Shown here: one piece after another, positions 3,058-34,897 of the stretch
Numbering within the stretch: the stretch's first letter is position 1
Layout of the letters: the number at the start of each line of letters is the position of its first letter
The notes under the pieces: model-generated
Databases searched by the model: none
Told to the model about the DNA's origin: nothing
What the model saw: only the letters and a program-made list of their open reading frames with translations
Position numbers and translations under genes: made by a program
Assembly: GCA_018818885.1 (NCBI GenBank)
Contig: JAHIRB010000025.1
Location: forward strand, 1 to 38,774
Direction of reading: 5' to 3'
Source: Patescibacteria group bacterium
Lineage (GTDB): Bacteria > Patescibacteriota > Patescibacteriia > Buchananbacterales > SURF-54
DNA length: 38,774 bases

Positions 3058-4335
3058 CTATAAGCCTTCGTAATCTCTCATTGTAAGCTGACTTTGGACC
3101 TGCTGCACAATTTCAATTACTACAGAAACAACAATCAAAATACTTGTTCCACCAATAACCAGACTTGCCGAACCAGAAAAAGCTCTAACAACTAATGGTA
3201 ATACTGCTATAAGTCCTAAAAACAAAGCGCCAGCTAATAATATTCTAGTACTTGTTTGTTGTAAATAATTTGCTGTGTGATTACCTGGTCTAATGCCTGG
3301 AATAAAACCACCTTGTTTTTGCAAATTTTCTGCAATTCTATCTGGATGAAAAATAACTGCTGTATAAAAATAAGTAAAACCAAATACTAACAAAAAGTAA
3401 AATACTCCGTAGAAAACTTGGTTTTCGAAAACCGCTATTACAAATTCTGCTGCTTTGACTATAATCTGACTGTTGGCACGCAAGAAAAACTGCGCTACCA
3501 TGGGTGGAAATAAAACGATTGAAATCGCAAAAATAATTGGTATAACACCTGCTTGGTTTACACGTAAAGGTAGATGAGTATCTACACCACCATACATCTT
3601 CATACCTCTTACTCTTCGAGCGTATGATATAGGAATATTTCTTTGACCTTCGTTGATGATAACTACACCGACAATTGTAATTACTGCAATGGCGGCAAAA
3701 ACAAGTAGACTAATAAGTTGTTCTGGGTCGAAAGTAGCCATGGTATTTCTTAAAATTTCTGGAATTCTAACCACAATACCTACAAAAATCAAAATGGAAA
3801 TTCCGTTTCCAATCTTTTTTTCGGTAATTAGTTCTCCAATCCACATTAAAAATATAGTACCAGCAGTTACTGTAGTAATAGTCGTGATCAATTTATATAT
3901 ATCCAGTTCTGGAATAATTTGTAGTTGTGATTGTCTTAATAATGCAATCATGGCATACGACTGCATAATAGCCAAAGGAATAGTTAGCATGCGTGTCCAT
4001 TGGTTGATCTTACGTTGGCCTGCTTCCCCTTCTCTTTGCATTTCTTCTAATTTAGGTATGATCATTACAAGTAGTTGAAAAATAATTGAAGCCGTAATAT
4101 ATGGTGCAACACCTAAAGCTACAACAGAAAAGTTTTCCATGCCACCACCTGAAAAAATGTTAAGTAACCCTAAAAATTGGTTGCCAGCAAAAAAATCTTT
4201 TAGAGCTGATACATCCACGCCAGGGACAGGGATATGTGCAGCAATTCTAAAAATAACAAGCATCCCAAAAATATAAACAATCTTATTTCTTAAATCTTTA
4301 ATTTTCCAAATTTGTATGATTTTTTGTAAAACCAT
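3058..4335 (-). CDS. secY: Preprotein translocase subunit SecY
   Basis: Central channel of the Sec translocon in the cytoplasmic membrane. At 425 residues with about ten transmembrane segments it is the normal bacterial size. Family features include the N-terminal IPVPGVDVSAL plug-side region, the EAGQRKINQWTR cytoplasmic loop near residue 105, and ISYARRVRGMKMYGG in the large fifth cytoplasmic loop, where the ribosome and SecA bind. It follows rplO by five bases, as usual in spc operons, and is followed by a terminator. Confidence 0.98.
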   Translation of the reverse strand: MVLQKIIQIWKIKDLRNKIVYIFGMLVIFRIAAHIPVPGVDVSALKDFFAGNQFLGLLNIFSGGGMENFSVVALGVAPYITASIIFQLLVMIIPKLEEMQREGEAGQRKINQWTRMLTIPLAIMQSYAMIALLRQSQLQIIPELDIYKLITTITTVTAGTIFLMWIGELITEKKIGNGISILIFVGIVVRIPEILRNTMATFDPEQLISLLVFAAIAVITIVGVVIINEGQRNIPISYARRVRGMKMYGGVDTHLPLRVNQAGVIPIIFAISIVLFPPMVAQFFLRANSQIIVKAAEFVIAVFENQVFYGVFYFLLVFGFTYFYTAVIFHPDRIAENLQKQGGFIPGIRPGNHTANYLQQTSTRILLAGALFLGLIAVLPLVVRAFSGSASLVIGGTSILIVVSVVIEIVQQVQSQLTMRDYEGL

Positions 4336-6636: not shown

Positions 6637-7035
6637 TTAGTATACTTCGCAAATTACTTCTCCACCAACTCCTATTTTTTTTGCTTTTTTGTTGGTCATT
6701 AAACCTTGAGAAGTAGAAATTAGTGCAATTCCTAAATTATTTAATACTCTTGGTAAATCATCTTTAGTTGCATATACTCGTCTGCCGGGCTTACTTATTC
6801 TTTGAATTTTTGTGATAGCTCCTTTTTTAGGTTCAACATATTTTAATACAATCCTTATTTCATCACCAAAACCAGTTTGGCTTTCTACTTTTTCAATTTT
6901 TTTAAGATAGCCTTCTTCTGATAAAATTTTTGCAACTTCAAACTTTACCTTTGAAAAAGGCAAAACTACCTCAGGTTTATTTACTGCCTGAGAATTTCTA
7001 ATTCGTGTTAACATGTCTGCTATTGGATCTGTCAT
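6637..7035 (-). CDS. rpsH: 30S ribosomal protein S8 (uS8)
   Basis: Primary 16S rRNA-binding protein. It begins MTDPIADMLTRIRNSQ and ends with ALISTSQGLMTNKKAKKIGVGGEV, both strongly conserved in S8. 132 residues is the usual length. It follows rpsZ with a six-base gap. Confidence 0.98.
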   Translation of the reverse strand: MTDPIADMLTRIRNSQAVNKPEVVLPFSKVKFEVAKILSEEGYLKKIEKVESQTGFGDEIRIVLKYVEPKKGAITKIQRISKPGRRVYATKDDLPRVLNNLGIALISTSQGLMTNKKAKKIGVGGEVICEVY

Positions 7036-30432: not shown

Positions 30433-30597
30433 CTACTCCCTTTTTTTCTTGTGCTGCTGGGGTAACCCAGGCTCGGATACAAAGTAGACAGAACGCCTAT
30501 TTTTCCTACGGCGCCTTTCTTCAACTTCGTCATCACCAGATCTTTTCCTTTCTTTACTTCCTTGTATTTCTTTTTTTTTCTTCTCTTCCTCTGCCAT
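30433..30597 (-). CDS. Short highly charged protein, first gene of the operon
   Basis: 54 residues, about half Lys, Arg or Glu (MAEEEKKKKEIQGSKERKRS; later VEERRRRKNRRSVYF). It is probably disordered and could bind nucleic acid. A GGAGGGAAA site lies seven bases before the ATG. It is the first structural gene after the aromatic attenuator, with two small hairpins in the leader (30629-30646 and about 30668-30680). No family is recognised. Confidence 0.65.
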   Translation of the reverse strand: MAEEEKKKKEIQGSKERKRSGDDEVEERRRRKNRRSVYFVSEPGLPQQHKKKRE

Positions 30598-30628
30598 GCT
30601 GCTTTCCCTCCATTTGGTTTAAGTTGTA

Positions 30629-30646
30629 AAGAGCTCTTGAGCTCTT
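30629..30646 (-). promoter_or_regulatory. Perfect hairpin in the operon leader
   Basis: AAGAGCTC and GAGCTCTT with a two-base loop, about 30 bases before the ATG of the 54-aa gene. It may affect mRNA stability or translation. Confidence 0.4.
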
Positions 30647-30761
30647 AAAATTAATTGCTCATTTGCACCCATTTGAAATGGACACAATCAAACAATCAAT
30701 AACTATTATCCTTCGACTCTTCAGTCCTATTTAGAGCCGGCAAACTCATGAAAATAAAAAA

Positions 30762-30785
30762 CCGACCCTTTTTACAGAAGATCGG
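30762..30785 (-). terminator. Terminator hairpin of attenuator iv
   Basis: CCGATC/GGTCGG stem with an 11-12-base loop, followed on the minus strand by TTTTTTATTTTC. Confidence 0.8.
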
Positions 30786-30833
30786 ATTCGCTATGGTTAG
30801 TTTTTATTTTATGTATGAATGTATGTAGCAAAA

Positions 30834-30905
30834 CTAACTCACCCGAGCTTCTGGGTCAGTAAAGAAATAAAAACCGAAATACCAGTTGTTTTGCATAATA
30901 TTCAT
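30834..30905 (-). CDS. Aromatic-rich leader peptide (23 aa)
   Basis: The peptide starts MNIMQNN and continues WYFGFYFFTDPEARVS: one Trp, two Tyr and four Phe within eight codons (residues 8-15). This is the composition of known phe, trp and aro leader peptides. Its stop codon lies within antiterminator strand 2. The promoter -10 box ends 11 bases before the ATG, so the mRNA would have a 5' leader of only about four bases. It was found by reading the leader directly. Confidence 0.85.
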   Translation of the reverse strand: MNIMQNNWYFGFYFFTDPEARVS

Positions 30906-30915
30906 ACTTAAGGAT

Positions 30916-30943
30916 ATTTTACACTATTTACATTATTTGTCAA
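30916..30943 (-). promoter_or_regulatory. Promoter of attenuator iv and the small-protein operon
   Basis: TTGACA (complement of 30938-30943), 16-base spacer, TAAAAT (complement of 30916-30921). Confidence 0.78.
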
Positions 30944-30980
30944 GGAGTGTCTGCAGCTAGTAATTTTAGCTAAAAGTGAG

Positions 30981-31012
30981 AACCGCGGAACCTTTTAATG
31001 GGTTCCGCGGTT
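30981..31012. terminator. Strong hairpin downstream of leuA
   Basis: AACCGCGGAACC and GGTTCCGCGGTT form a perfect 12-bp stem with an eight-base loop, 46 bases after the leuA stop. The T-run is weak (CTCACTTTTAG on the minus strand), so it may act as a terminator or an mRNA 3' stabiliser. Confidence 0.7.
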
Positions 31013-31058
31013 TGTGACTACGTGGTTAAACACGCGCTGGGATTTAGAGCTTTCATGC

Positions 31059-32696
31059 CTATTTCGAGTTACCGTTGCCCCGAAGCGAATTAACCAACCA
31101 GCTAATGCAGTTGGCGTAGCCCTGGGCGGTTGCCTGGATAGTATCGACATCAGCATCTCTACCAGAATATATACGATTCTTCTCGTTCACCAGACCGATA
31201 GCTGCATGCAAGTCTGCAATAGCTTCTGCACCCTCGCCTACTTGCACAGGTTGCCATCTCTTAAGTACAATCTCGACTCCTTTCAATTCAGGGAAAATAT
31301 CCTTGGCAGCTTCGAACACAGCCAGCATAACTGCATGGAAAGTACCATTGCCTTTCATTGAGGCGGAAGCTTGTTTCCCTTCAGCTTCAATTATAATCGT
31401 AGCATTAGGTATAGTACCTCTTCCACCAATAGCCTGGCACCGTACTACCTCGATACGAAACGGAGTTTTCTCAACCACATCCTGTGCGAGAGTGATCAAC
31501 TCGTGGTCAGTTACCCTTGCACCGGCTCTGGCGTCTGAAAGCTTGGTCATTTTCTGGTATATTCTGTCGAGTTGTTCGTTCGTAACGTCGAACCCTAATT
31601 GTTCAAGGCGATACCTTAATCCTTTTCTAGAGGAGCTTTGGTTCAATACGACTTCGACACCAGTATGGCCAAACATGTCTGGCTTCCAACTGTAGTAAGG
31701 ACTTGCCTGCTCTTGTTTAGCTGCTCCAGCCTCAACACCCTGATGCATACCAGAGCTCACCACGATATTTTGAATACCTGCAACCACGTGATGCCTTGGA
31801 ACTTGCATCCCAAGTGCAGTAGCAACGAAATTGACTATTTCTACAGTCATTGATGCATCAAGGCAAACTGCATAGTTAGCAAACACATCACGTCGTGTAA
31901 ACAAGCTAAGTAATATAGCCTCGAACTTGGTCATACCACTACGCTCACCTAAACCGAAGAAGGTACCTTCGATTATTGTTGCGCCGTTGCGTATTGCACA
32001 GAGCGCATTATGAGTGGAATGATCTGAGTCGTTGTGACAGTGAACCGATACTTGAGCTTTCCCGATATTGGACACGTTATCGAAAATATAGGCGATTCTA
32101 TCACCAAATTCGTTTCCGATACAAAGCCCTGTAGTGTCGGGGATGTTGACAACAGTTGCACCAGCATCGATGACTCCCTTAATAAGTCGACATAGATAAT
32201 CCACGTCACTAGCACGTGCTGCATCCTCAGGCGAGTATTCAATGTGTTTGAAGCCCAACCGTTTGGCATACTTGATGCATTTAACTGCCAAATCGAAAAG
32301 AAAGTTCTGTTTACCTTCCTTAGTATTGCCATATTTTACTGAATTGAACTGTGCCATTACCAACTGGTCACTCACAGGTATAACAATGTGACAAATGTCA
32401 CAACCAGCTTTTTTAACCGCATCGATGTCGATTTCTGCACCGCGCGCCAATCCGGACAACAAAGGTTTATCGCTGACACAGTTTGACTGATCAACAAACT
32501 TACGTATGCGAATACAATTTTTCAACTGCTCGTCGGAACTACCAGGAAAACCAATTTCGATTCTTCTTGTACCGACTCGCATAAGACGGTCCACTAATCC
32601 TTCCTGGTCTTCCACGGACATTCCTCCACCTTCAACTTGCCCGGATTCTCTGAGTGTTACGTCGTTGAATTCAATCATTATCATGTTTTCTTGCAT
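31059..32696 (-). CDS. leuA: 2-isopropylmalate synthase family protein (LeuA-like)
   Basis: Condenses acetyl-CoA with a 2-oxo acid, the first step of leucine synthesis if it is a true LeuA. 545 residues. The HMGL-like TIM barrel has FNDVTLRESGQ (D12 metal ligand, R16 catalytic), HCHND with H219 and H221, and GLGERSGMTKFEA; the linker SSGMHQ follows. The C-terminal part (from about residue 410, IEVVRCQAIGGRG) is the LeuA_dimer regulatory domain, so homocitrate or citramalate synthase activity is also possible. AGGAGA precedes the ATG. A Leu-rich leader peptide attenuator upstream supports a leucine role. No leuB, leuC or leuD is in the window. Its GC content is visibly higher than that of its neighbours. 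Confidence 0.9.
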   Translation of the reverse strand: MQENMIMIEFNDVTLRESGQVEGGGMSVEDQEGLVDRLMRVGTRRIEIGFPGSSDEQLKNCIRIRKFVDQSNCVSDKPLLSGLARGAEIDIDAVKKAGCDICHIVIPVSDQLVMAQFNSVKYGNTKEGKQNFLFDLAVKCIKYAKRLGFKHIEYSPEDAARASDVDYLCRLIKGVIDAGATVVNIPDTTGLCIGNEFGDRIAYIFDNVSNIGKAQVSVHCHNDSDHSTHNALCAIRNGATIIEGTFFGLGERSGMTKFEAILLSLFTRRDVFANYAVCLDASMTVEIVNFVATALGMQVPRHHVVAGIQNIVVSSGMHQGVEAGAAKQEQASPYYSWKPDMFGHTGVEVVLNQSSSRKGLRYRLEQLGFDVTNEQLDRIYQKMTKLSDARAGARVTDHELITLAQDVVEKTPFRIEVVRCQAIGGRGTIPNATIIIEAEGKQASASMKGNGTFHAVMLAVFEAAKDIFPELKGVEIVLKRWQPVQVGEGAEAIADLHAAIGLVNEKNRIYSGRDADVDTIQATAQGYANCISWLVNSLRGNGNSK

Positions 32697-32788
32697 TTCT
32701 ATCTTCTCCTATTCGTTATGTTGGCTTATGAAAGTTTTAACTTTCTTGCTTAGTTCCCCTCCCATGAAAAGAACATAAAATAAAAACT

Positions 32789-32811
32789 GCCCTTCACTAC
32801 TGGCGAAAGGC
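32789..32811 (-). terminator. Terminator hairpin of attenuator iii
   Basis: GCCTTTC and GAAGGGC, 7 bp, nine-base loop, followed by AGTTTTTATTTT on the minus strand. Confidence 0.85.
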
Positions 32812-32840
32812 TAGCTTCTGTTTAATATCTTTATTTAATC

Positions 32841-32930
32841 TTAGACATAAGTAAACCTTCCACCAAAAGGTAGCAACAACAATAATAATGCTTTTAAGTT
32901 CTGATTTAGTTTTAGGCTGAAAGGTTTCAT
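32841..32930 (-). CDS. leuL: Leucine-rich leader peptide (29 aa) of leuA
   Basis: It begins MKPFSLKLNQNLKA, continues with six leucine codons in a row (residues 15-20: TTA TTA TTG TTG TTG CTA) and ends PFGGRFTYV. A run of leucines just before the switching strands is exactly the arrangement of LeuL leaders in enterobacteria. The same PxGG follows the Ile run in leader i, because the RNA strand 2 is conserved there. A TATATT five bases before the ATG may be the -10 box, but no matching -35 is seen; read-through from 33576 is possible. Confidence 0.88.
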   Translation of the reverse strand: MKPFSLKLNQNLKALLLLLLPFGGRFTYV

Positions 32931-33009
32931 TATTTAATATAGTTATAAATTTAGGGTGAGGAGAAAAGAAGCATTGTGCCGCTTTTCCCCTCGAATTCCT
33001 AAGGAACAT

Positions 33010-33150
33010 TGGTGGGTGATTGGGAATCGAACCCGACATCTTTCGGTTGTAACGCATCAGCGAGCTACACATCCTAATCCCCCATGGGGATAAATTAGGT
33101 TGTGTTTCCTGGTTAGAAAATGCGCCGATTGGCCACCTTGGCTATCACCC
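33010..33150 (-). ncRNA. tRNA-like RNA with a large internal insertion
   Basis: The 5' end GGGTGAT (33150-33144) is exactly complementary to ATCACCC (33020-33014), which is followed by ACCA. TAGCCAAGGTGG resembles a tRNA D-arm (GCC/GGC stem) and GGGTTCGATTCCC a T-arm, so the bacterial equivalents of both conserved tRNA boxes are present. GCATT and GATGC can form the anticodon stem. Between them lie about 60 bases with a 14-bp hairpin (CACA-CCTA-ATCCCC against GGGGAT-TAGG-TGTG). The acceptor-plus-T stack is one pair short and the T-stem has one mismatch. It may be an intron-containing or decayed tRNA, or a tRNA mimic. No anticodon can be assigned. Confidence 0.4.
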
Positions 33151-33154
33151 TATG

Positions 33155-33345
33155 CCACGTTCAACTAACCTGTTGCGACAAGTAACCGTTCGCTTACCAG
33201 TAATTACTGGCCACTACTGGCAACAAACTGTTGAACCGACAAACGTGGATCATCAAACGTATCGATGAACATAATGCGAAAATGTTCGCGAAACTAATAG
33301 CTACTGTCAGATCAGAGCGCTCTGTAGCTATTTTCATGTGATCCA
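33155..33345 (-). ncRNA. Structured RNA domains upstream of the tRNA-like RNA
   Basis: Two adjoining domains are visible on the minus strand. The first is closed by TGGATCA/TGATCCA (33345-33339 with 33252-33246) and holds a perfect 9-bp stem, AATAGCTAC/GTAGCTATT (33332-33296). The second is closed by CCACG/CGTGG (33248-33244 with 33159-33155), continued by TTCAAC/GTTGAA and GTTGC/GCAAC, with a perfect CCAGTAATTACTGG hairpin at the tip. No convincing ORF lies here. A TATAAT (33366-33371) could start transcription, or it is reached by read-through of attenuator ii. Confidence 0.4.
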
Positions 33346-33389
33346 AATATTTTAATTAATTGTAAATTATACATTTTCTTTTAAAAAAA

Positions 33390-33409
33390 CCAGCCTTTTT
33401 ATAAGCTAG
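33390..33409 (-). terminator. Terminator hairpin of attenuator ii
   Basis: CTAGCTT/AGGCTGG stem (7 pairs including G-T pairs, extendable through the T-run), followed by TTTTTTT. Confidence 0.75.
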
Positions 33410-33466
33410 CTTTGGAACTTGTCTAATTTGTTGTTTGTTTTATCTTAATTTAGTCCAAAACTAGCC

Positions 33467-33541
33467 TTATATCAATACCACTAGTATCAATACGACTAGG
33501 CTGATTGTGATGACTAAATTGTTAGATAAAACTTTATTCAT
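33467..33541 (-). CDS. Val/Leu/Ile-rich leader peptide (24 aa)
   Basis: It starts MNKVLSNNLVITIS and ends LVVLILVVLI before the stop: ten branched-chain codons in a row at residues 15-24. The stop codon adjoins antiterminator strand 2. The composition matches leaders of ilv operons, which respond to all three branched-chain amino acids. The -10 box ends about 11 bases before the ATG, again giving a very short 5' leader. Confidence 0.83.
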   Translation of the reverse strand: MNKVLSNNLVITISLVVLILVVLI

Positions 33542-33552
33542 ATGATATTTAT

Positions 33553-33581
33553 AATTTACAGCATTACGAAAAAAAAGTCAA
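33553..33581 (-). promoter_or_regulatory. Promoter of attenuator ii
   Basis: TTGACT (complement of 33576-33581), 17-base spacer, TAAATT (complement of 33553-33558). Confidence 0.7.
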
Positions 33582-33657
33582 TGCTTTATTATTACCTAAA
33601 TTTAGTGAAATTAAAATTTTTCCACATACACAGCTATCATTTTTTGCAAAGAGAAAA

Positions 33658-33679
33658 GGCGGTTCGCAAGCGAATCGCC
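33658..33679 (-). terminator. Terminator of the 88-aa gene
   Basis: GGCGATTCGC and GCGAACCGCC (one mismatch, two-base loop), followed by TTTTCTCTTT on the minus strand. Confidence 0.82.
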
Positions 33680-33706
33680 CATTTTGATTTTGCCTTGGCT
33701 ACTGGA

Positions 33707-33973
33707 TTAATCCAGATTTGCCGAATCTACGATGATAGTCACCTCTCTTTTCTTGAAAAAACCCGAACGTATTTTCTCCGGTGGATCATACTTTCCATTA
33801 CCCCTAATTCTGGCAACTACGACACGTTTATCTGACCCTACGGCAAGTTGTACCTTTACAAGTTGGACTTTTGCTCCACTTTCACTACAAATGTCATGTC
33901 CATTTAATCTTTCCCAGTGCCCCCCTCCATTATGCACAAAAACACTGTAGCCACAACTATTATAACTTGACAT
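33707..33973 (-). CDS. 88-aa protein of unknown function behind an isoleucine attenuator
   Basis: I start at the ATG at 33973 (MSSYNSCGYSVFVHNGGGHW) because GGAGGGAAA lies five bases before it. The protein is polar and beta-rich (KVQLVKVQLAVGSDKRVVVARI) with a final EVTIIVDSANLD. There is no signal peptide, membrane segment or recognised family. It is monocistronic: promoter 34165-34193, isoleucine leader peptide, attenuator, gene, terminator. The ending resembles the beta-type endings of the 97-aa and 59-aa proteins in the aromatic operon, which may point to a shared fold. Confidence 0.7.
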   Translation of the reverse strand: MSSYNSCGYSVFVHNGGGHWERLNGHDICSESGAKVQLVKVQLAVGSDKRVVVARIRGNGKYDPPEKIRSGFFKKREVTIIVDSANLD

Positions 33974-34031
33974 CGTTTCCCTCCATTTTGGATCTTTAAA
34001 TGATTTCTTGCCATTTTCGACAATCAAAAAT

Positions 34032-34049
34032 GCCTTCCCAGTGGAAGGC
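34032..34049 (-). terminator. Terminator hairpin of attenuator i
   Basis: GCCTTCC and GGAAGGC, a perfect 7-bp stem with a four-base loop, followed by ATTTTTG on the minus strand. Confidence 0.88.
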
Positions 34050-34076
34050 TTCTTAGTATTTATCTTGTTATTTTAG

Positions 34077-34154
34077 CTAAACACGAAGTAAACTTCCACC
34101 CAAAGGCTGGCTAATAATAATTTCGATAATTATTGTGGAAGTTATTTTTATCAT
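34077..34154 (-). CDS. Isoleucine-rich leader peptide (25 aa)
   Basis: It starts MIKITST, then IIIEIII (residues 8-14, six isoleucine codons out of seven), then SQPLGGSLLRV. The Ile codons end 13 bases before the switching strand. The promoter -10 box ends 10 bases before the ATG, giving a 5' leader of only a few bases, so translation must start nearly leaderless. Confidence 0.86.
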   Translation of the reverse strand: MIKITSTIIIEIIISQPLGGSLLRV

Positions 34155-34164
34155 AGTTTTAAGT

Positions 34165-34193
34165 ATAATATCGTATGTTGAAAATCGTGTCAA
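34165..34193 (-). promoter_or_regulatory. Promoter of attenuator i
   Basis: TTGACA (complement of 34188-34193), 17-base spacer, TATTAT (complement of 34165-34170): near consensus. Confidence 0.85.
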
Positions 34194-34297
34194 GTGCGAG
34201 GTATGTGATTATAGATATTAAGACAATTATAATTTTCTAAATAATTACTTACTCTAATCAGCTCTAATCTCTATAATAACTACAATTACTCAAACTA

Positions 34298-34897
34298 CTA
34301 CCCAAACATCACCTCTTCATCTACTCTGTTGTAGTTATCGACAATATCTGCCTTTTTAAACCAAAGCTGTTCTTCGTATTTTGCTTCTTCTTCGTTACCA
34401 GATGCATGCATTATGTTATGTACTGCTCGATTTCTTATATTTGCTAGTGCTGGCGAATCAATTGAATAATCACCTCGAACTGTTCCTGGATCTGCAAACA
34501 CTGGCAAAGTGTTGCCTGCAATCATTCTAACATTATCTATGGCGTGAACACCTTCGAGTAAAATTGCAACAACTGGACCAGAAGTAATAAACTCTGTATT
34601 CCATTTATTGACCATCTTGCCGATTTCTTCTGCAGACTTATTACCAAACTCTTCTTTTGGATCTCGTCCGTATTTTTCGTAAGTTTTTAAAGTTTTTTCT
34701 CCAATTGCTTTCATGAGCTCTGTTCTGCTTTCAGGATAATGTTGTTTAGCTAAAGTTTTATCTGCCCATACCATTTTTAGACCAATAATTTTTAAGCCCA
34801 TTTTTTCAAAACGAGATAAAACATCACCAACAAGTGCACGCTTTACTCCGTCGGGTTTTATTAATACTATTGTTCTCTCTTTATGTATTTCTGCCAT
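34298..34897 (-). CDS. ndk: Nucleoside-diphosphate kinase, with internal insertion
   Basis: Transfers the gamma phosphate between nucleotides. ERTIVLIKPDGVKRALVG at residues 7-24 and RNRAVHNIMHASGN near 156, with catalytic H164, are diagnostic. At 199 residues it is longer than the usual 130-150; an insertion of about 45 residues lies in the middle (about 68-105, including YGRDPKEEFGNKSAEE). The end motif W(F)xxxD is partly kept. It is otherwise ordinary. Confidence 0.93.
   Translation of the reverse strand: MAEIHKERTIVLIKPDGVKRALVGDVLSRFEKMGLKIIGLKMVWADKTLAKQHYPESRTELMKAIGEKTLKTYEKYGRDPKEEFGNKSAEEIGKMVNKWNTEFITSGPVVAILLEGVHAIDNVRMIAGNTLPVFADPGTVRGDYSIDSPALANIRNRAVHNIMHASGNEEEAKYEEQLWFKKADIVDNYNRVDEEVMFG

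Follow-up and report, generated by a model that had tools for sequence, protein, structure and literature searches.

A putative isoleucine attenuator before an orphan gene belongs to a leader family of Patescibacteria

Why does a leader peptide made largely of isoleucine codons stand in front of a single gene for a protein of 88 amino acids? This question is raised by the isoleucine (Ile) unit, which is placed between ndk and a LeuA-like gene in the window, a 38,774-base stretch of DNA that is one entire contig (C1) of a metagenome-assembled Patescibacteria genome (G000; 1.35 Mb, 34% GC, 98.6% complete). In a sequence search, the closest named match of the ndk protein was Candidatus Buchananbacteria, with other Patescibacteria also close. 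Whole-genome scans of G000 covered all contigs except 332 bases of contig 9. The Ile element is very probably an Ile-responsive, ribosome-mediated transcription attenuator of a Patescibacteria-wide family.

The promoter of the unit (TTGACA, 17 nucleotides, TATTAT) agrees with the consensus at 11 of 12 positions. It is followed by the leader open reading frame (ORF), MIKITSTIIIEIIISQPLGGSLLRV, in which the run IIIEIII has six Ile codons in seven and eight of the 25 codons are Ile overall. The element combines this tandem-codon leader ORF with a mutually exclusive antiterminator and terminator, an anti-antiterminator, and an intrinsic terminator before the gene. A preliminary description of this DNA had pointed to six Ile codons in seven, to mutually exclusive stems and to a complete unit. 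All of this was confirmed by the 25-codon leader, by the folding of three states and covariation in relatives, and by the presence of promoter, leader, competing stems, gene and terminator.

The leader ORF has no Shine-Dalgarno (SD) sequence and begins 4-5 nucleotides past the predicted transcription start. SD-like motifs precede about 11% of first ATG starts in G000, a minimum estimate, since each start was set by the longest ORF. Boxes resembling -10 elements are enriched 6-9 nucleotides upstream of ATG starts. These two features suggest that many mRNAs of this genome may be leaderless. Because SD motifs are scarce and -10 boxes are enriched near ATGs, a near-leaderless start of the Ile leader is compatible with the organism, and the lack of an SD sequence is no objection. 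The gap between the -10 box and the ATG is 10 nucleotides, slightly outside the enriched range.

Folding predicts the 1:2 stem (ACUUCCAC with GUGGAAGU) when the RNA ends short of strand 3, and a small AAUAAUU/AAUUAUU hairpin forms within this stem. When strand 1 is masked, the 2:3 antiterminator is predicted, lengthened by GUGUUUA/UAAAUAC. With a ribosome at the stop codon, the 3:4 terminator is predicted, in which strand 4 is GGGAAGG (34039-34033, minus strand), then TTTTT. The predicted fold switches in line with the classical model when the sequence is cut to mimic masking by a stalled or terminating ribosome. The Ile leader is the sole intergenic small ORF with at least six Ile in seven codons in the 1.35-Mb genome, where 0.2 such ORFs are expected from shuffled intergenic DNA. 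No other 5' leader in the genome combines a terminator with two nested competing complements, and such competing pairs arise in 0.03% of leader shuffles. The unique Ile run and the unique nested competing stems coincide at one locus, and blastn detected no further copy of the element in G000.

In the proposed mechanism, RNA polymerase would start about 4 nucleotides upstream of the leader ORF. A shortage of Ile-tRNA would stall the ribosome on the Ile run, where it would cover strand 1; the 2:3 antiterminator would form, and the polymerase would enter the 88-amino-acid gene. When Ile-tRNA is plentiful, the ribosome would reach the stop codon, which lies inside the inner antiterminator arm, so that by its geometry a ribosome there would disrupt the antiterminator; 3:4 would then form and transcription would end. 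If the leader is not translated, 1:2 would form and 3:4 would terminate transcription. We infer from this arrangement that the element works in vivo, that it responds to isoleucine and in which direction it does so.

Table 1. Features of the Ile unit, the Leu element and their neighbourhood in the window
Feature	Position	Strand	Remarks
-35 box TTGACA, Ile unit	34188..34193	-	TTGAC boxes at the equivalent place in most relatives
-10 box TATTAT	34165..34170	-	17-nucleotide spacer to -35 box
Ile leader ORF, 25 amino acids, near-leaderless	34077..34154 (ATG 34154, TAG 34077)	-	MIKITSTIIIEIIISQPLGGSLLRV; III-x-III-SQPxGG conserved in relatives; synonymous change in excess
Strand 1 ACTTCCAC	34135..34142	-	Pairs with strand 2; immediately 5' of Ile run; folding, covariation
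Strand 2 GTGGAAGT	34092..34099	-	Partner of strand 1 or strand 3; folding, covariation
Inner antiterminator arm GUGUUUA	34078..34084	-	Terminates in leader stop codon; folding
Inner antiterminator arm UAAAUAC	34056..34062	-	Folding
Strand 3 CTTCCAC	34041..34047	-	Pairs with strand 2 (antiterminator) or strand 4 (terminator); folding, covariation
Leader terminator GCCTTCC-ACTG-GGAAGGC and U run	34026..34049	-	Strand 4 inside; predicted hairpin -12.7 kcal/mol; covariation
SD-like GGAGGG of 88-amino-acid gene	33979..33984	-	
88-amino-acid gene (putative controlled gene)	33707..33973	-	Orphan protein
Terminator 3' of 88-amino-acid gene	33658..33679	-	Palindromic hairpin, listed on plus strand; minus-strand tail TTTTCTCTTTG
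ndk	34298..34897	-	Syntenic neighbour upstream of Ile unit, common to relatives with Ile leader
Leu leader ORF MKPFSLKLNQNLKALLLLLLPFGGRFTYV (second element)	32841..32930	-	Covariance model match 32779-32933, 97.4 bits with R1 (in R1 training set)
Strand 2 of Leu element GGTGGAAGG	32856..32864	-	
Leader terminator of Leu element and U run	32782..32811	-	Read from sequence; folding
LeuA-like gene (2-isopropylmalate synthase family) behind Leu element	31059..32696	-	Best 299 bits, under curated cut-off 532

Similar leaders are present in other Patescibacteria. Three relatives have an Ile leader 3' of ndk: MTSTISQIIIGIIISQPMGGSLKLSE (L144), MKKTFTNNIIIGIIIISQPRGGSFLSS (L145) and MISARSLIIIGIIINQPQGGSFLA (L146), and another genome carries MTFAKNIIISISIISQPTGGSLSTV (G004, L009). 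A leucine (Leu) leader follows the Ile leader in several relatives, for example MKLFHSQLNGLLLGLLLLSQPVGGRFTSV (L145), and this Ile-then-Leu tandem is found in the window, L145 (G010), L146 (G009), G004 and G007. A covariance model built from nine leaders, Ile and Leu only (R1), was searched against 380 genomes of the class; 26 of them contain a total of 34 matches at E<=1e-3, against about 0.4 predicted by the nominal E-values. The Ile element of the window, which was in the training set, scores 118 bits, among the best of the family. R1 also found serine (Ser) leaders, MQQKKYLSPKLSWNTVCSSSSSSSACGERFTFA (C37) and MQDKIYLTPIKSWASVCSSSSSSAYGGRFFIG (C48, E 0.003) in the same genome as the window and one in the same-family genome G001 (E 0.0013). 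A rebuilt model (R2) matches leaders in other classes of the phylum, and weaker candidates hint at methionine and phenylalanine versions (L186, L189). The window has no Rfam leader match at the gathering threshold, the best being 30.4 bits against a cut-off of 55 (Phe_leader, RF01859), and nine other leader loci have none at E<=0.5. The preliminary description had proposed a lone attenuator dedicated to one small protein. This was not borne out, as members of the same family also stand before genes for citramalate synthase and isopropylmalate synthase, before serine-pathway genes and before other small ORFs, and a second, Leu copy lies in the window.

Both the structure and the codons of these leaders appear to be under selection. 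In an alignment of 36 leaders, changes on both sides occur in 12 of 14 pairs of stems 1:2 and 3:4, a count that none of 500 shuffles reached, and sliding the stem partners abolishes this signal. The alignment was fitted to the 1:2/3:4 structure and not to the 2:3 antiterminator, which is 91.7% paired and has a covariation score reached by none of 500 shuffles. Synonymous codon differences number 60 among eight Ile leaders (19±4 expected) and 124 among eight Leu leaders (27±4 expected); no formal P value is attached because the leaders are related and were hand-aligned on strand 2. This excess points to translation of the leaders.

The amino acid of the leader agrees with the pathway of the following gene wherever that gene can be named, as enzyme matches behind Ile, Leu and Ser leaders indicate. 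DRE-TIM enzymes behind Ile leaders are split from those behind Leu leaders by a single branch (96 of 96; none of 500 label shuffles). As citramalate synthase, Ile-leader enzymes score 576 bits in L171 (cut-off 450) and 399 bits, below the cut-off, in L145; as isopropylmalate synthase, Leu-leader enzymes score 680 bits in L166 and 601 bits in L145 (cut-off 532). The Ile leader 3' of ndk in L145 precedes a citramalate synthase-like gene (L145 8344-9936), and so does the Ile leader of G004. A Ser leader precedes a phosphoglycerate dehydrogenase-like (SerA) gene in L183, and the Ser leader on contig C48 of G000 (84459-86295; L122 4459-6295) is followed by a 163-amino-acid ORF and then SerC (398 bits, cut-off 253). 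The controlled gene fits the pathway in relatives and, by family, at the Leu copy of the window, and the 88-amino-acid gene matches no pathway family. The parts of the element, their conservation, the covariation of three stems, the codon selection and the leader-pathway match in relatives are thus all apparent from sequence comparison.

In 25 leader-bearing genomes, of which 17 are at least 90% complete, no IlvD or IlvC was detected, and the same searches were positive in 14 of 14 control genomes. The LeuC/aconitase family was present in two of the 25. With IlvC and IlvD in none and LeuC in two, the Ile- and Leu-controlled enzymes seem to operate without the known downstream pathway. With neither ilvC nor ilvD detected, a strict reading as regulation of isoleucine biosynthesis was abandoned. 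Small uncharacterised proteins stand behind many leaders, the 88-amino-acid orphan among them. Some small proteins behind Ile leaders (L144 7534-7929, L146 2454-2858, L163, L194) resemble stand-alone LeuA allosteric (dimerisation) domains; the Pfam match to this domain has an E-value of 8e-4 in L194 (under the cut-off) and only 0.3 in L144.

The 88-amino-acid ORF has its own SD-like motif, its own terminator and codon use typical of the small ORFs of the genome. A frameshifted or longer gene was rejected, as any joining of the leader and gene frames would cross a stop codon. The 380 class genomes gave no homologue of the protein, only weak matches that cross stop codons (best E 0.008). None was found in GTDB genome contigs, IMG/VR, phages, PDB sequences, Pfam, NCBIfam or PHROGs, and plasmid matches to Phaeobacter calcium-binding proteins (E 0.2) were judged to be chance. 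The protein matched no known pathway subunit, and no kinship with other proteins behind Patescibacteria leaders was detected. The preliminary description had called the protein beta-rich, which finds weak support in an AlphaFold2 model from the single sequence with a predicted local distance difference test (pLDDT) score of 64; the fold is not a confident one, and fold searches with this model returned nothing usable. Our best guess is that the protein may be a small protein induced by Ile starvation, in the slot held elsewhere by a citramalate synthase-like gene.

The unit could be explained in other ways. The conserved leader may have lost a citramalate synthase-like target and now be a remnant before a meaningless or decaying ORF. 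The citramalate synthase-like genes behind the Ile leaders of L145 (3' of ndk) and G004, together with the lack of a homologue of the 88-amino-acid ORF, favour this explanation, which we consider unlikely though deserving of some weight. However, promoter, stems and leader are intact, and the score of the element is among the highest of the family (in the training set). The ORF itself carries an SD sequence, typical small-ORF codon use and its own terminator, and unrelated small ORFs follow Ile leaders in several other genomes. It is much less probable that control is translational, with strand 4 (GGGAAGG) acting as the SD sequence of a 106-amino-acid protein that begins at TTG 34027, 5 nucleotides downstream, and hidden by 3:4 until a ribosome has stalled at the Ile codons. 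In favour, no stop codon interrupts its frame as far as 34072, and codon use in 34027-33974 resembles that of coding sequence. However, relatives have the hairpin and then a U run, with the gene start further down behind its own SD sequence (AAGGAGG in L144), ATG 33973 has GGAGGG, and the first 23 residues of the 106-amino-acid model have pLDDT <50.

A metabolite-binding riboswitch or a T-box, with the Ile-rich ORF an accident of an AU-rich hairpin, would account for the AAUAAUU/AAUUAUU hairpin within the 1:2 stem. This explanation is the most improbable, as the Ile and Leu codons vary synonymously well above chance, Leu and Ser runs substitute for the Ile run on one scaffold, and there is no Rfam riboswitch or T-box match; for the T-box, none was obtained in the window at the gathering threshold or in 30500-34300 at E<=2.

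Several points weigh against the attenuator reading itself. The evidence for it comes from sequence and comparison, and no known pathway enzyme lies under the Ile copy of the window. The 88-amino-acid gene has no homologue that could show conservation of its pairing with the leader, and it may be a recent or degenerating gene to which a conserved leader is attached. The E-values of the family searches come from a short, rough calibration. Because R1 and R2 include the codon run, the finding of Ile and Leu leaders is partly built in, which does not apply to the Ser leaders found with R1. The rebuilt model, which gives the four members in G000 (Ile, Leu, Ser, Ser) 72-121 bits where background begins at 31 bits, was trained on all four.

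The Leu element is positioned 1.2 kb downstream of the Ile element. Between the 88-amino-acid gene and the Leu leader, a tRNA-like sequence (33010-33083, minus strand) has a T-loop-like TTCGATTCC and a CCA end; neither ARAGORN nor Rfam called it. In L003 (3260-3330) and L005 (3332-3417), Rfam gives weak tRNA matches (about 30 bits) 3' of the LeuA-like gene. An HTH_17 (excisionase-like) protein of 59-60 amino acids lies between ndk and the Ile leader in L144 (about 6841-7008), L145 (6769-6948) and L146 (1823-2005) and is absent from the window. The Ser leader on contig C37 of G000 (3357-3981; L067) stands before a 113-amino-acid ORF flanked by apparent ribosomal protein S16 and KH-domain genes. 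A possible methionine leader, MSFVFNFQKSSLTMMAMMMKLPGKAGFKFI (L186; G272 contig 32, 8892-9024, minus strand), precedes a 259-amino-acid gene that by eye is like the SAM hydrolase/DUF62 family and has no NCBIfam match.

What the attenuator family does for the cell can be proposed with a little more belief than doubt. One Patescibacteria scaffold, retuned to Ile, Leu, Ser and possibly methionine or phenylalanine, may form a starvation regulon of host-dependent auxotrophs. Instead of entire pathways, it would induce small proteins and orphan homologues of citramalate/isopropylmalate synthase, perhaps marking loss or gain of host contact. Free Patescibacteria are presumably starved. The switch between the host-attached and free states has been described as completely unknown (PMC11665869). 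The Ile element offers a concrete, sequence-defined candidate for a starvation sensor, together with a list of genes that cells would induce under shortage of Ile, Leu or Ser. It also poses a pointed metabolic question, namely why citramalate/isopropylmalate synthase homologues stay under Ile/Leu control where IlvC and IlvD were not found.

The enterobacterial trpL, hisL, leuL, ilvL and thrL attenuators consist of a leader ORF with regulatory codons, 1:2, 2:3 and 3:4 stems, and an intrinsic terminator ahead of the gene. The Patescibacteria element shares the codon-run leader ORF, the alternative stems and the intrinsic terminator. It differs in belonging to another phylum with no Rfam leader match at threshold, in a scaffold that serves Ile, Leu and Ser alike, in a near-leaderless leader ORF, and in targets, some of which are orphan small proteins of genomes where IlvC/IlvD were not detected. 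The ilvB-II, ilvB-OMG and ilvB upstream ORF motifs of Corynebacterium, Leptospira and other bacteria contain a conserved upstream ORF rich in branched-chain amino acids, with proposed transcription attenuation, and precede ilvB (PMC10272879). The Patescibacteria leaders likewise have a branched-chain-rich upstream ORF and putative attenuation; no Rfam family matched them. The actinobacterial LEU element, described with ilvB and leuS leaders, also places a Leu-run leader peptide before leuA, but it is a pseudoknot, in which the base stem is formed by the Leu codons and the leuA SD sequence (PMC1262725). The Patescibacteria leaders instead use the classic 1:2/2:3/3:4 stems with an intrinsic terminator. 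No report of leader-peptide attenuation in Patescibacteria was found in the literature searched, though a paper may exist elsewhere. The kind of mechanism is textbook and the family is absent from Rfam; what is new is the lineage, the sharing of one scaffold by several amino acids, the near-leaderless design and the set of targets.
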